Part shown: positions 5,076 to 38,753 of the stretch, in pieces
Layout of the letters: every line of letters starts with the position of its first letter
Numbering within the stretch: the stretch's first letter is position 1
Source of the DNA: Nitrospirota bacterium
GTDB lineage: Bacteria > Nitrospirota > 9FT-COMBO-42-15 > HDB-SIOI813
Direction: 5' to 3'
Length of the DNA stretch: 64,000 nt
Assembly: GCA_020851375.1 (NCBI GenBank)
Contig: JADZCV010000005.1
Location: forward strand, 1 to 64,000
Position numbers and translations under genes: made by a program
The notes under the pieces: model-generated
The model's database searches: none
What the model was told of the DNA's origin: nothing
Seen by the model: only the letters and a program-made list of their open reading frames with translations

Positions 5076-6499
5076 TCGTCCTGTCTAATCTGATGTATCA
5101 TCAGCATATTGGTTGAACCTGCAACACCCCATGGCACCCCAAGCGTTATAATGACCGTGTCCCCGCGCTTTGCGAGTCCTGTCTCCAGGAGTTTTTGCTC
5201 AACGCCGTTAATCATGGCATCAGTGTTTTCCCTGAGTTCCACAAGGACGCCCCTTACTCCCCAGTAGAGAGAGAATCGTTTAAGGATCGGCGGTGTGTGC
5301 GTAACGCCGATTATAGGGATGCGGGGCCTGTATTTTGATATGATTCGTGCAGTCCCGCCTGATTTTGTGAAAGCGACGATTGCCGTTGCATTTATGTCAA
5401 GGGCTGTATAATAAACTGCATGGGCTATAGCGTGTTCTGAATCTCCCCATACCTTGACCTCCTCAGGCACTGTCTTCAGATTTTTAAAGAGCCGGACTTC
5501 AGTGGCGGCTGCAATCCGGTTCATCATTGAGACGGCTTCAACCGGATATTTACCGACAGCCGTCTCTCCGGACAACATTATTGCGTCTGTGCCGTCAACG
5601 ATGGCATTGGCAACGTCTGACGCCTCAGCCCTTGTTGGTCTCGGGTTGTGTATCATGGATTCAAGCATCTGTGTGGCAGTAATTACAGGAATGCCTTCTT
5701 CATTGCATCTGCGTATAATCTCTTTTTGTATGATAGGGACCTCTTCAGGAGGCAGTTCGACACCGAGGTCGCCCCTTGCTACCATTACGCCGTCTGCAAC
5801 CTTTAATATCTGATCCAGGTTATCAACAGCCTCAGGCTTTTCAATCTTGGCGATTACCGGTATTGATGCGCCTTCCCTTTTCAGGATGTTTTTTACGGAG
5901 GCAACATCATCTGCGTTCCTGATAAATGAGATGGCGACATAATCCACCCCCTCCCGTATGCCTGTCAGCAGGTCATCCCTGTCTTTGTCTGTAAGGCTTG
6001 GTACTGAAAGTTGTGCCCCCGGGACATTGATCCCCTTTTTTTCCGTTAGCCGCCCGCCCCTTATAATGTTGCATATGATATCCGTTTTGGTGGTTTTCTG
6101 CACCTCGAGCTCAAGGAGTCCGTCATCCAGCAGGATGCGGGATCCTGCTGAAATTTCCTGCGGGAGAGGGGTGTAGTTAGTGGATACCTCGCGTTCATTT
6201 CCTGTGATATCCCTTGTGGTAATGGTGAAAGTTGAGCCTTCCTCAAGATATACGGCATCCTTATCCAGTTTGCCTATGCGAATCTTGGGGCCTTGTAAGT
6301 CAAGCAGGATGCCGATGTCTTTGCCTGCCTTATAAGATGCTATGTTAACATTGGAAATCAGGCTGTGGTGATCTTCCGTAGTGCCATGTGAAAAGTTAAG
6401 GCGCGCAATATCCATGCCTGCCCTGATCAGTTGTTCTATAGTCTCGGTTGTATTGCTTGCCGGTCCCAGTGTTGCAACTATCTTTGTTCTGCAGTCCAT
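5072..6499 (-). CDS. pyk: Pyruvate kinase
   Basis: 475 aa, normal length for the enzyme that converts phosphoenolpyruvate and ADP to pyruvate and ATP. Visible signatures are TKIVATLGPAS at the N-terminus, NFSHG, the IEKPEAVDNLDQI active-site segment with the catalytic Lys, the MVARGDLGVELP cation-binding loop, and the C-terminal allosteric domain with VAFTKSGGTARIISKYRP. It is followed directly by an exporter operon and preceded 10 nt upstream by livM, an unusual neighbourhood that suggests a composite operon. Confidence 0.95.
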   Translation of the reverse strand: MDCRTKIVATLGPASNTTETIEQLIRAGMDIARLNFSHGTTEDHHSLISNVNIASYKAGKDIGILLDLQGPKIRIGKLDKDAVYLEEGSTFTITTRDITGNEREVSTNYTPLPQEISAGSRILLDDGLLELEVQKTTKTDIICNIIRGGRLTEKKGINVPGAQLSVPSLTDKDRDDLLTGIREGVDYVAISFIRNADDVASVKNILKREGASIPVIAKIEKPEAVDNLDQILKVADGVMVARGDLGVELPPEEVPIIQKEIIRRCNEEGIPVITATQMLESMIHNPRPTRAEASDVANAIVDGTDAIMLSGETAVGKYPVEAVSMMNRIAAATEVRLFKNLKTVPEEVKVWGDSEHAIAHAVYYTALDINATAIVAFTKSGGTARIISKYRPRIPIIGVTHTPPILKRFSLYWGVRGVLVELRENTDAMINGVEQKLLETGLAKRGDTVIITLGVPWGVAGSTNMLMIHQIRQDE

Positions 6500-6509
6500 G
6501 TCTTTAACC

Positions 6510-7673
6510 TCATGTCCTTTCTTCGGAAGGCATCAATTCTATTTTTCTTCTCGGATTGCCTATTAAACCCTGTGGTCTGAAAATCATCATCAGCGTCATT
6601 GCACCTCCAAAGGCGAGCATGCGGTAATCATGAAATCCCCTGAATACCTCAGGTAATATAATGAGCAGTGCGACACCAATTATAACACCGGTTATGCTGC
6701 CCATTCCACCAAGGACTACCATTGAGAGGACAAGCACTGTTTCAAAAAAGGTGAAACTCTCCGGAGAAATGAATGAGTATCTGCCGGCAAAGAAGACGCC
6801 TGCCAGGCCTGCCCAGGATGCACCAAGGGTAAAGGCCAGTATCTTCATATACGTTACATTTATCCCCATGGCAGATGCGGCTGTTTCATCTTCCCTCATG
6901 GCTATCCATGCGCGCCCTATCCGTGAATTATTGATGCGGTTTATTACAAAAACAGCCAGCGCTGCAATGAATATTATCAGATAATAGAAGTGTGCCGGAC
7001 TTGAAAACGTGAAGCTTCCGATAGATGGGGGTTCTATGCCAAGTATGCCGTTGGGCCCGTTGGTAAGTCCGTCCCAGTTGTTTAGTACCAGGTGAACTAT
7101 CATGAGGAATCCTAGGGTTACGATAGCGAGATAGTCCCCCCTCAGGCGGAGCGTAATAATGCCGAGGACTGTTCCGCACAGGGCCGACAGCAGCGCCCCT
7201 GTTATTAAGGCCGGCCAGAAGGGTATTCCAAGTTGTGTATTCAAAATGCCGTAGGAGTATGCGCCCACGGCATAAAAGGCAATATAGCCAAGGTCAAGAA
7301 GTCCGGCAATGCCCACGACTATATTGAGGCCAAGGGCGAGAACCGTGTATATTCCGGCAATTGTCAGCACATCTATATAGTAATTATTCATGAACAGCGG
7401 CATGACAATAAACAATAAGAGAACCAGTAAGGTTGCCCCTGTTTTTATTTGCGGTCTGCCGGCAAACGAGTGAATGTTGTTTGTGCTGCGCTGAATATCA
7501 GACGAGATACGCCTGCCTTTGTCAGATTTTACATAATTATTTATTACAGAGAAGAGGATAAACCCGGCAAGAATGATGCAGCCGCCGATTACTGCCTTCG
7601 TTATCCCCATAAACGGGAGCATCAGGAAGGCAGACCATACAGGTATGATCAGTGTTCTTTTATAATTTATCAT
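6510..7673 (-). CDS. livM: Branched-chain amino acid ABC permease LivM
   Basis: 387 aa. A hydrophobic extension (about 1-90) precedes the usual LivM core with LALGLNIVVGIAGLLDLGYIAFYAVGAY and the cytoplasmic coupling loop GRAWIAMREDETAASAMGIN. It pairs with LivH for import of Leu/Ile/Val or related amino acids. The ATG shares one base with the livH stop (TAATG). The expected ATPase genes livG and livF do not follow; pyruvate kinase does. Confidence 0.92.
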   Translation of the reverse strand: MINYKRTLIIPVWSAFLMLPFMGITKAVIGGCIILAGFILFSVINNYVKSDKGRRISSDIQRSTNNIHSFAGRPQIKTGATLLVLLLFIVMPLFMNNYYIDVLTIAGIYTVLALGLNIVVGIAGLLDLGYIAFYAVGAYSYGILNTQLGIPFWPALITGALLSALCGTVLGIITLRLRGDYLAIVTLGFLMIVHLVLNNWDGLTNGPNGILGIEPPSIGSFTFSSPAHFYYLIIFIAALAVFVINRINNSRIGRAWIAMREDETAASAMGINVTYMKILAFTLGASWAGLAGVFFAGRYSFISPESFTFFETVLVLSMVVLGGMGSITGVIIGVALLIILPEVFRGFHDYRMLAFGGAMTLMMIFRPQGLIGNPRRKIELMPSEERT

Positions 7674-34977: not shown

Positions 34978-35430
34978 ATGGATGAGGGCGTTGCAGCAAC
35001 AAATAAGAAGGCGTATCACGATTATTTTATTGAAGATACCTATGAGGCGGGTATACAGTTGCTGGGTACTGAGATCAAATCCATGCGTGATGGCGGGGTA
35101 AGTCTCAAAGACGGTCATGCAAGGGTTGAGGGGGGAGAGGTGTTTCTCTACTGCAATATCAGTCCCTATAAGGCGGGCAATATAAATAATCATGAGCAGG
35201 GGAGAAGGCGCAAGCTTCTGCTCCACAGGGAAGAGATATCCAGGATATTCGGTAAGATTCAGCAGAGGGGGTATAACCTGGTCCCCCTGAAGGTATATTT
35301 CAAGAGGGGGATTGCAAAGGTGGAGATAGGTGTGGCAAAGGGTAAGAAGCTCTACGATAAAAGGGAAGACATCAGGAAGAGGGATGCCGGCAGAGAGGTG
35401 GCACAGGCATTCAGGGAGAGGCAGAAGTAG
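34978..35430 (+). CDS. smpB: SsrA-binding protein SmpB
   Basis: 150 aa. SmpB beta-barrel features: [54 protein letters not shown] and [27 protein letters not shown], with a basic C-terminal tail. It carries tmRNA to stalled ribosomes. The tmRNA gene ssrA is 0.9 kb downstream on the same strand, separated by repeats and a small lipoprotein gene. Confidence 0.95.
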
Positions 35431-36325: not shown

Positions 36326-36672
36326 GTAGACTGGGGGCGACTGGCTTCGACGGGGATCGTGAGGCCAGGATTGCATGCTGAGGTCCCGTTGGCCTCATAA
36401 AACAAACGGGAAAAACACAACTGCTAACGCAGATTTTGCACTCGCTGCCTAATTAAGCAGCGATGCCCTGCCTGAGGCTGCCTGTGCCGCAGGTAAGGGT
36501 GTCATAATTACAGGCTGGCCTGCCTTTTCCTCCTGCAGGAGGCGGGTGAGACTACAGCGGGATAGCGGTTCCTTTGAGCCTGCCTGCGGGCATGGGGGAC
36601 TGCGAAACCTTAATACGCACGGCTAAGCATGTAGATGTCCTGATGCAGAACATTTCCGGACGCGGGTTCGAT

Positions 36673-37021
36673 CAATGGTCGCGTTGGGGAGAAATCCCCA
36701 AATGAAAACGGGGCTCACATCGGTGAAACCTGACGGCATCCCGGCAATCTGCCTATCCACTCTGAAGGTTAGGGTGAGGGGGCAGGGATGTCATGGCAAC
36801 GCCGAGGGGTAGCAAGGGGGCAAACTCCAGGGCTGCCCTGTAGAGACTTATAGCTTCGCTGGTCTTATTTTCATGGAAAAGATGAGCGAATACTAAGATC
36901 CGCATAGACTGCGGATAAGATGCCCCGCATCCAGATCTTCTTTACCCCCTTTTCTAAAGGGGGATAGGGGGATTTGGATGAAGGCATAGTCCAGCCCACT
37001 TCGAAAGAAGTGGAAACGCTG
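36673..37021 (+). mobile_element. Group I intron in the tmRNA T loop
   Basis: 349 nt. The upstream exon ends in U and the intron ends in G, as required. P1 forms between exon CGAU and intron GUCG (36678-36681) with the U-G pair at the splice site. A P2 hairpin TTGGGGA-GAAA-TCCCCAA is at 36684-36701, a Q-like CAATCTGCC near 36746, an R-like GTAGAGACTTA (36840-36850) and an S-like AAGGCATAGTCC (36981-36992) whose GACT/AGTC strands make P7, and P9 CCACTTC-GAAA-GAAGTGG (36996-37013) just before the final G. No ORF is inside. A repeat of the CCCCC/GGGGG family sits in the P8 region. Confidence 0.88.
36938..36979. repeat. CCCCC/GGGGG hairpin repeat inside the intron, copy 2
   Basis: ACCCCCTTTTCTAAAGGGGG and ATAGGGGGATTTGG match the repeat at 35452 and lie between the intron's R and S elements, i.e. 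in a peripheral extension of P8. Confidence 0.7.
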
Positions 37022-37047
37022 TCCCGCCGCCTCCACCAATTTGGTAA

Positions 37048-37089
37048 AAAGCCCCTGACTGATTCATTATCAGGGGCTTTATTTTTTTT
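37048..37089 (+). terminator. Rho-independent terminator of ssrA
   Basis: AAAGCCCCTGA (37048-37058) pairs perfectly with TCAGGGGCTTT (37070-37080) around an 11-nt loop and is followed by A plus eight T. It separates the tmRNA from the homing endonuclease gene. Confidence 0.9.
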
Positions 37090-37114: not shown

Positions 37115-37576
37115 ATGATAGGAGTAAGGCATACAGCTTATAGGAAAGTAAAAACACTTACTGCTGTTGAGGCTTCATACATTGCAGGTCTTATAGATGG
37201 AGAAGGGACAATCACATTATCTCGAAGACACCGCAATGAAAATCGCCAGCTTGTTGTCAGTATTAGTAGTACAGAGGATAACCTCTTGAATTACGTCCAA
37301 AATAGCGTGGGAGCCGGACGTATCACAGGCAAACGAACTTATAGCAACAATCACACACCAAGTAAAACGTATCAAATTTCCAACCGCCAGGCATTGGACC
37401 TCTTAAAGCAAACTGCTCCCTATCTAAAATCTTATAAGGCAGATAGGGCTGCTATAGTTCTGGATCAATATGTCAGGGTAACACCACGGAATGGCCGATA
37501 TTCAGCAGTTCTGCGTTCAGAACGAGAGGCTTTTATTGAAATGTTTTTTGGCATTTCCCCATTAGAAATAAAATAA
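37115..37576 (+). CDS. LAGLIDADG homing endonuclease, free-standing next to ssrA
   Basis: 153 aa with one LAGLIDADG motif, IAGLIDGEGT at about 23-32, carrying the catalytic acidic residue, followed by the expected beta-strand/loop pattern (ITLSRRHRNENRQLVVSIS, GRITGKRTYSNNHTPSKTYQISNRQ, LLKQTAPYL). A single motif means it should act as a homodimer. Such enzymes normally lie inside group I introns or inteins; this one starts 77 nt after the tmRNA 3' end and beyond its terminator, outside the intron. No ribosome binding site is visible at ATG 37115; TACGAT at 37102-37107 could be a -10 giving a leaderless mRNA. The natural target would be intronless ssrA, by inference. Confidence 0.9.
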   Translation: MIGVRHTAYRKVKTLTAVEASYIAGLIDGEGTITLSRRHRNENRQLVVSISSTEDNLLNYVQNSVGAGRITGKRTYSNNHTPSKTYQISNRQALDLLKQTAPYLKSYKADRAAIVLDQYVRVTPRNGRYSAVLRSEREAFIEMFFGISPLEIK

Positions 37577-37934: not shown

Positions 37935-37977
37935 TTAATTTAAAAAGATAATATACTCGCTTCAAAGTTTGGATGGC

Positions 37978-38226
37978 ATGGCTCACCGAAATTGGCAATA
38001 TATCAAATGGATTGAGGAATTAAGCCAAGGTTTAAACATGGGGAAAAATAAGGTTATAAGTTTTGATGAGATCATGAATCTCTATGATGAATTGTTCCCT
38101 GGTAAAACGGCAGTAAGGATTGATCCCCTGTTGAGGTCTGTTACCCCTAAAACAGTCGCCGAAAGGTTAAGAGAAACCATCCGGCTTTCAGAAGAAATAA
38201 TATGGAAAAAACCCTCAAAGAGATAA
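37978..38226 (+). CDS. Small protein upstream of a nucleotidyltransferase (possible antitoxin)
   Basis: 82 aa from ATG 37978; ATG 37969 or 38038 are alternatives, and only the last has AAGG at a fair distance. The sequence is charged and helical (FDEIMNLYDELFP, TVAERLRETIRLSEEI) with no domain I recognise. It overlaps the next gene by 25 nt, the typical arrangement of a two-gene antitoxin-toxin module. Function as antitoxin is inferred from position only. Confidence 0.5.
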   Translation: MAHRNWQYIKWIEELSQGLNMGKNKVISFDEIMNLYDELFPGKTAVRIDPLLRSVTPKTVAERLRETIRLSEEIIWKKPSKR

Positions 38227-38753
38227 TAAGGATTCTTGAACATGCAGGAAATATTAAGGCTTATGCGCTTATTGGCGGCCTCGCTGTTGGCGGATGGGTT
38301 ACTCCGAGGGCAACCAGAGACATAGATATATTAGCGGATTTATCGGTAACGACTCGCGCTGCCATCGAAGATTTGCTGAAGAAGCTATTAATAGCCGGCT
38401 TCAAGGGAAGCCTCGAAACAGGCGCACTGGAAGATGAGATAAAGTTTTGCATAAAAGTATTGTCAGGAGAGAATGTACCTGTTGACATAATATTTGCCAG
38501 CCGGAAATGGGAAGCGGAAATAGTAGAAGAAGGCATGGTTGTTGAGGTATTAAAGGGTTTGTCCATTCCTCTTGTCAGGCCGGAGGGCTTGATAGTACTT
38601 AAGCTGAAGGCCGGCAGCTTTCAGGATGTTGCCGATGCATCTAAACTCCTTGTTGAAGCGGAATATGATCTGCAAAGATTGCGCAAACTGGCAAAGAGGG
38701 CAAGAGCCGATAAAATGCTTGGACGGCTGATGGAAAAGTTAGGGCTGGGATGA
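38202..38753 (+). CDS. AbiEii-like nucleotidyltransferase
   Basis: 183 aa. The minimal nucleotidyltransferase fold is visible: ALIGGLAVGGW (GG at 25-26), the metal-binding pair TRDIDILAD (Asp40, Asp42) and a third acidic position in VPVDIIFA, then LVRPEGLIVLKLKAG. This matches the AbiEii/DUF1814-like and related defence or toxin nucleotidyltransferases. With the overlapping small upstream gene it may be a toxin-antitoxin or abortive-infection pair. It lies downstream of ssrA, a frequent insertion hot spot. Confidence 0.7.
   Translation: MEKTLKEIIRILEHAGNIKAYALIGGLAVGGWVTPRATRDIDILADLSVTTRAAIEDLLKKLLIAGFKGSLETGALEDEIKFCIKVLSGENVPVDIIFASRKWEAEIVEEGMVVEVLKGLSIPLVRPEGLIVLKLKAGSFQDVADASKLLVEAEYDLQRLRKLAKRARADKMLGRLMEKLGLG

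Follow-up and report, generated by a model that had tools for sequence, protein, structure and literature searches.

Does a LAGLIDADG gene that lies outside a group I intron in a tmRNA gene (ssrA) mobilize that intron? The question is raised by a locus in a 64,000 nt stretch of DNA from a Nitrospirota bacterium (contig JADZCV010000005.1), referred to here as the window. The original prediction was one of collaborative homing, in which a neighboring endonuclease cuts the intronless allele and repair copies intron and endonuclease gene together. The comparative evidence supports this, with cleavage itself inferred. The gene is likely to encode a tmRNA-dedicated, I-CreI-like homing endonuclease which mobilizes the T-loop intron by collaborative homing; cleavage, the cut site and splicing are all inferences. 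Intron and gene very probably spread jointly as a selfish pair.

tmRNA rescues stalled ribosomes; the gene for its protein partner, smpB, is encoded on the plus strand at 34978-35430 (Pfam SmpB, E 2.1e-57) and ssrA follows approximately 0.9 kb further on. With its intron included ssrA spans 36333-37038. The 5' exon (36333-36672, plus strand) runs from GGGGGCG to ...GGTTCGAT, its ends being read from the sequence, and was matched by RF00023 at 36340-36674 (153.7 bits). A tmRNA tag frame, (A)ANADFALAA*, was read within this exon at approximately 36423-36452. The 3' exon TCCCGCCGCCTCCACCA (37022-37038, plus strand) was read directly and aligned with homologues. Between the exons a 349 nt insert (36673-37021, plus strand) interrupts the T-loop (TTCGAT^T). 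It is preceded by U at position -1 and ends in G, meeting the group I criterion. Its RF00028 score was 35.2 bits (E 3.5e-7), which is under the Rfam gathering score of 50. The insert aligned to introns of Nitrospirota and Proteobacteria, compensatory changes were present at 31 of 58 predicted pairs in a 12-sequence homologue alignment, and the boundaries were identical across 38 homologous loci. The Nitrospirota and Patescibacteria boundaries depend partly on metagenome assemblies. The conserved core, the U at -1 and the terminal G mark the insert as a group I intron, its Rfam score remaining below the cut-off; self-splicing is inferred. No ORF of 60 aa or more was listed within it and no nuclease gene remnants were found inside any of the 38 related introns. 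ARAGORN did not call the split tmRNA, an expected miss. A terminator hairpin followed by a T-rich run was found by folding at 37048-37080 on the plus strand (-18.4 kcal/mol, z -3.4). A consensus terminator scan did not call this hairpin, probably on account of its loop.

The LAGLIDADG homing endonuclease gene (HEG) comprises 153 codons at 37115-37576 on the plus strand and starts 77 nt beyond the tmRNA 3' end. It lies past both the 3' exon and the terminator and does not meet the criterion for an intron-encoded homing endonuclease; the claim that it is free-standing, outside an ORF-less ssrA intron, held. Pfam LAGLIDADG_1 and LAGLIDADG_3 both scored above their cut-offs. There is one LAGLIDADG motif per chain, YIAGLIDGEGT (37178-37210, plus strand), in which the Y and AGLIDGEG, including the acidic residue E30, are invariant among 36 aligned homologues and the T is nearly so. 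The C-terminal family signature TPRNGRY (37481-37501, plus strand) reads TPRNG[RK]Y across the same alignment, with T, R, N, G and Y invariant. The AlphaFold (AF2) model had a pLDDT of 92. In a Foldseek search of the PDB, I-CreI entries were the best matches (E 6e-8) followed by I-MsoI, with TM values of about 0.6-0.7. The dN/dS between homologues was 0.13-0.26, so this is not a chance ORF. Motif and predicted fold identify the product as a LAGLIDADG homing endonuclease; sequence-specific DNA cleavage is inferred. Database labels for it are generic, in Pfam, in PHROGs ('HNH endonuclease') and in PADLOC ('HEase').

In an alignment of the start region the ATG used by close relatives reads CAT in the window copy as a result of a 1-nt indel. 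The ORF therefore opens at an upstream ATG, at 37115, before which no clear Shine-Dalgarno sequence is seen. Judging from the sequence, expression or translation of the window HEG may be weak. The lost start could reflect the beginning of decay or an assembly error in a base, either being possible.

HEG homologues were searched for in 296 genomes of the window's phylum, Nitrospirota, and were found in five. At four of these loci the HEG adjoined ssrA and the fifth lay 2.8 kb downstream. All three full-length copies (window genome, G035, and G172) adjoin an intron-bearing tmRNA. A decayed copy adjoins an intronless tmRNA in G059, and in G252 remnants follow both an intronless tmRNA and a displaced half intron. 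A genome of the window's own genus (G054) has the intron, with the contig edge falling on the apparent HEG start. At two Nitrospirota loci (L043 and L044) introns of normal form were present without a HEG or with fragments only. A search of a genome contig collection returned 51 loci, about 40 of which were HEG homologues. Nearly all the closer homologues were on the same strand as an intron-bearing tmRNA and 19-190 nt behind it, an arrangement present in Nitrospirota, Gammaproteobacteria, Betaproteobacteria and Chloroflexota. More distant LAGLIDADG ORFs from this search (L110-L115) had no tmRNA linkage, and a plasmid search for HEG homologues gave no matches. Within the samples searched the HEG family is nearly confined to tmRNA genes, across many bacteria and some phages, and is usually beside an ORF-less intron.

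The association was also seen from the intron. A splice-site pattern that used no nuclease sequence found 17 tmRNA introns in 369 gammaproteobacterial genomes, and two more (G497 and G505) came from nuclease hits. A HEG or a trace of one was downstream of 18 of these 19 introns: nine HEGs were intact, nine were truncated, frameshifted or fragmentary, and one intron (G393) had none. Genomes without a detected intron contained a HEG trace in only two of 350 cases (G325 and G391), both decayed and beside an intronless tmRNA. Every intact gammaproteobacterial HEG (9/9) accompanied an intron. Fisher's exact test of intron against HEG gave 2e-27 when any trace was counted and 3e-13 when only intact copies were. 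These values are optimistic as the genomes are related, and the pattern may have missed introns. A comparison of related genomes for joint presence or absence had been proposed as a check on the original prediction. In the Nitrospirota and Gammaproteobacteria samples all intact HEGs were by intron-bearing ssrA and none was found with intronless ssrA. This gives indirect support to protection of the resident allele by the intron, which is inferred.

Within genera the same pattern was visible. In Thiocapsa a HEG or remnant was present in 5/5 intron alleles (three intact, one frameshifted and one reduced to the C-terminal end) compared to 0/4 intronless alleles. In Methylophaga the counts were 4/7 (one intact and three fragments, with nothing at the remaining three) compared to 0/13. 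Such counts are not phylogenetically independent. The intron outlives the nuclease, as expected of a homing cycle. Introns without a HEG, together with decayed HEGs by intronless ssrA, fit HEG decay better than independent histories.

Alignment of Thiocapsa intron and intronless alleles showed upstream homology unbroken to the exact intron insertion point, with exon 1 about 98% identical throughout. Over the 75 nt past the CCA, identity was 80-97% within intron alleles and 90% between two intronless alleles but 40-49% across the two types. Between T. marina and the intronless G1142, homology resumed beyond the HEG at 91%. Intron, 3' end, terminator and HEG therefore act as one replaced segment when set against intronless alleles. 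The left edge of this segment is at the predicted cut site, the cut site being inferred. The intronless outgroup G1141 was 66-70% identical to the intronless type, and the derived state is therefore probably the one with the intron block. Import as a single block is the simplest reading, although the intronless species could instead have lost the block. Joint acquisition of intron and HEG is supported by the Thiocapsa block and by co-occurrence and was not shown for the window's genus. No intronless sister allele was seen for the window locus, and hence the block argument stands on other genera. Distances between HEGs correlated with those between introns (r 0.40; 0.30 as a partial correlation on exon 1), with none of 5000 permutations as high. 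The correlation may be read as agreeing with joint inheritance, although it is modest and partly due to vertical descent.

Relatives of the HEG were found in other ARRANGEMENTS. In Elusimicrobiota (L104 and L106) the homologue, with 38-42% identity in the scan, is encoded in sense inside an intron at the same T-loop site. In Patescibacteria an intact homologue faces an intronless tmRNA across its terminator at two loci (L093 and L105), and at a third (L092) an intact HEG is about 10 kb from an intronless tmRNA. A T-arm closing A-T pair (GGATTCGATTTCC) was present at all three of these loci and absent from the other T-arms read. The three loci are mutually related and T-arms vary widely in Patescibacteria; that a changed T-arm shields HEG-bearing intronless tmRNAs is no more than a suggestion. 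A single-protein query of viral contigs gave no match, and the phage relatives were found with an alignment query. The closest of these were likewise linked to tmRNA. A relative is beside or inside a permuted tmRNA in L382, L385, L386 and phage Lacusarx, and faces an intronless tmRNA in L383, L384 and L387. More distant LAGLIDADG genes had no tmRNA linkage.

As the examples from Patescibacteria and phages demonstrate, the family can also exist at tmRNA genes that lack an intron. Strict pairing of intron and HEG held only in part, as Patescibacteria and some phages have an intact HEG at an intronless tmRNA, and for the same reason the intron cannot always be the protector. For these tmRNAs another target or a changed T-arm has to be supposed. 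The suggestion that the pair is an intermediate in the making of a mobile group I intron gains weight because sister HEGs are encoded within the intron at this same site, in sense in Elusimicrobiota and in antisense in phages. The direction is unresolved; a tree of intron-internal and free-standing HEGs had long branches and did not fix the direction of the move. HEGs of the family are arranged in several ways: beside tmRNA genes with or without an intron, within the intron on either strand, and within permuted tmRNA. A bolder reading, favored by a narrow margin, is that LAGLIDADG proteins with the TPRNG[RK]Y signature are a subfamily specialized on bacterial and phage tmRNA, that these arrangements are present-day snapshots of composite mobile introns being put together and taken apart, and that phages carry them between phyla.

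In the proposed mechanism the HEG product would act as a dimer, an inference from its single-motif fold, and its recognition site would be the T-arm of an intronless ssrA, around GGGTTCGAT^TCCC. Such a tRNA-like arm forms an inverted repeat and, by inference, is a natural target for a dimer. The intron would split the target site and so render the resident allele immune. An ssrA with intron and HEG may meet an intronless ssrA in one cell when DNA is taken up or delivered by a phage. Cleavage of the intronless allele at the T-loop would follow, and repair templated by the donor would bring in, as a unit, everything from the intron through the 3' exon and terminator to the HEG. Self-excision of the intron from the pre-tmRNA is predicted to leave the tmRNA functional. 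Once all alleles were occupied the HEG would drift to a pseudogene or deletion while the intron stayed. What is demonstrated is the anatomy, the family, the association, the block boundaries and the decay series.

Three other explanations were weighed. LAGLIDADG maturases exist, and the protein could bind the pre-tmRNA and aid splicing with little or no present DNA cutting. A weak sequence match to the yeast mRNA maturase structure 2ab5 (E 8e-4), the tight linkage and the purifying selection are in its favor. However, introns of normal form survive without a HEG or with fragments in Nitrospirota (L043 and L044), Methylophaga and Thiocapsa, and the HEG is kept beside intronless tmRNA in Patescibacteria and phages. 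The persistence of intron without protein, and of protein without intron, makes this role less likely, and the fold search also placed the DNA-cutting enzymes I-CreI and I-MsoI first. A maturase is considered unlikely.

Plain intronless homing is also considered unlikely. Here the HEG would target the ssrA site for its own spread, the intron either riding along or having settled independently in the same conserved arm. The HEGs by intronless tmRNA in Patescibacteria and several phages support it, but an intact HEG was never found with intronless ssrA in the Nitrospirota and Proteobacteria samples, and in Thiocapsa the intron makes up a single block with the HEG. Least likely of all is hitch-hiking, by which the HEG would be leftover cargo of the genomic islands that ssrA 3' ends attract. 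The tmRNA 3' ends that are displaced or duplicated and accompanied by HEG remnants (G252, L109, G497 and G325) point in this direction. Against it, the recurring unit is explained without an integrase, the HEG lies 19-190 nt from the tmRNA at nearly all loci, the Thiocapsa block begins at the intron site instead of at a 3' exon attachment site, and the HEG tracks the intron and not ssrA generally. Collaborative homing thus remains the preferred reading.

Collaborative homing is established in phages, where F-CphI is paired with the intron-bearing psbA of cyanophage S-PM2 (PMC6083498; reviewed in PMC3984707). Both systems combine an ORF-less group I intron with a neighboring free-standing HEG, an intron expected to block self-cleavage, and joint spread. 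F-CphI is an Endo VII-type enzyme with a protein-gene target in a phage genome and proven cleavage, whereas the tmRNA pair has a LAGLIDADG enzyme, an RNA-gene target, a location in bacterial chromosomes of several phyla, and cleavage that is inferred. A 2025 survey (PMC11915505) reported 883 tmRNA introns from 21 phyla, in the same gene and at the same T-loop location, with an internal LAGLIDADG HEG in 36 of the 883 (4.1%). It counted intron-internal HEGs only and its text is silent on downstream genes, whereas a HEG trace was found outside 18/19 gammaproteobacterial introns here. The homodimeric I-CreI and I-MsoI share the single motif per chain and are the best structural matches, but they are only 16-20% identical to the HEG and are encoded inside organellar rRNA introns. 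The phage relatives (IMG/VR L379-L387 and Sphingobium phage Lacusarx) belong to the same LAGLIDADG subfamily and are next to or inside tmRNA genes. They differ in that the HEG is antisense in the intron, beside or inside a permuted tmRNA, or convergent with an intronless tmRNA. The original prediction had suggested that a cellular tmRNA version could be undescribed. The literature searched, which excluded subscription literature, contained no description of a tmRNA intron accompanied by a free-standing nuclease or of collaborative homing on a bacterial chromosome.

Collaborative homing has been described for a small number of phage genes and is a proposed origin of mobile introns. The tmRNA loci suggest that it also recurs in bacteria, at a chromosomal RNA gene that is nearly universal. 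The enzyme family involved can be intact, decayed or lost, lie within introns or be carried by phages, and this variety opens the origin of composite mobile introns to direct testing. An endonuclease located outside the intron may explain, at least in Gammaproteobacteria, why tmRNA introns occur across many phyla though few encode an endonuclease. A T-arm-specific nuclease, if real, would be a useful tool.

A number of minor features were observed. In the window a small gene pair at 37969-38753 lies just 3' of the HEG. Its second protein resembles AbiEii (Pfam, E 2.6e-5) and the pair is possibly a type IV toxin-antitoxin module. Displaced or duplicated tmRNA 3' ends were located 0.15-8 kb downstream, with HEG remnants, in G252 (L037 and L005), L109, G497 (L272) and G325 (L274 and L277). 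Judging by these, integrative elements at ssrA may break up the intron-HEG pair. In G367 (C1:107567-110498) the HEG is in two halves about 2.5 kb apart, which is insertion-like. Three IMG/VR phage contigs (L379-L381) have a group I intron in the tmRNA T-loop at about 1400-2500 with the HEG inside in antisense. In L386 the LAGLIDADG gene (1405-2050) is within the permuted phage tmRNA match, apparently in the intervening segment. The 'HNH endonuclease' of Sphingobium phage Lacusarx (NC_041927.1; L376, 2447-3335) is a LAGLIDADG relative that overlaps the start of a permuted ssrA. Another relative annotated as HNH endonuclease is in a tRNA gene cluster of Gordonia phage WilliamBoone (L377, 2492-2989), and its target could be a tRNA T-arm. 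Pistol ribozymes were found near three phage tmRNA loci (L117 at 7139-7207, L118 at 7142-7210 and L120 at 6375-6442).
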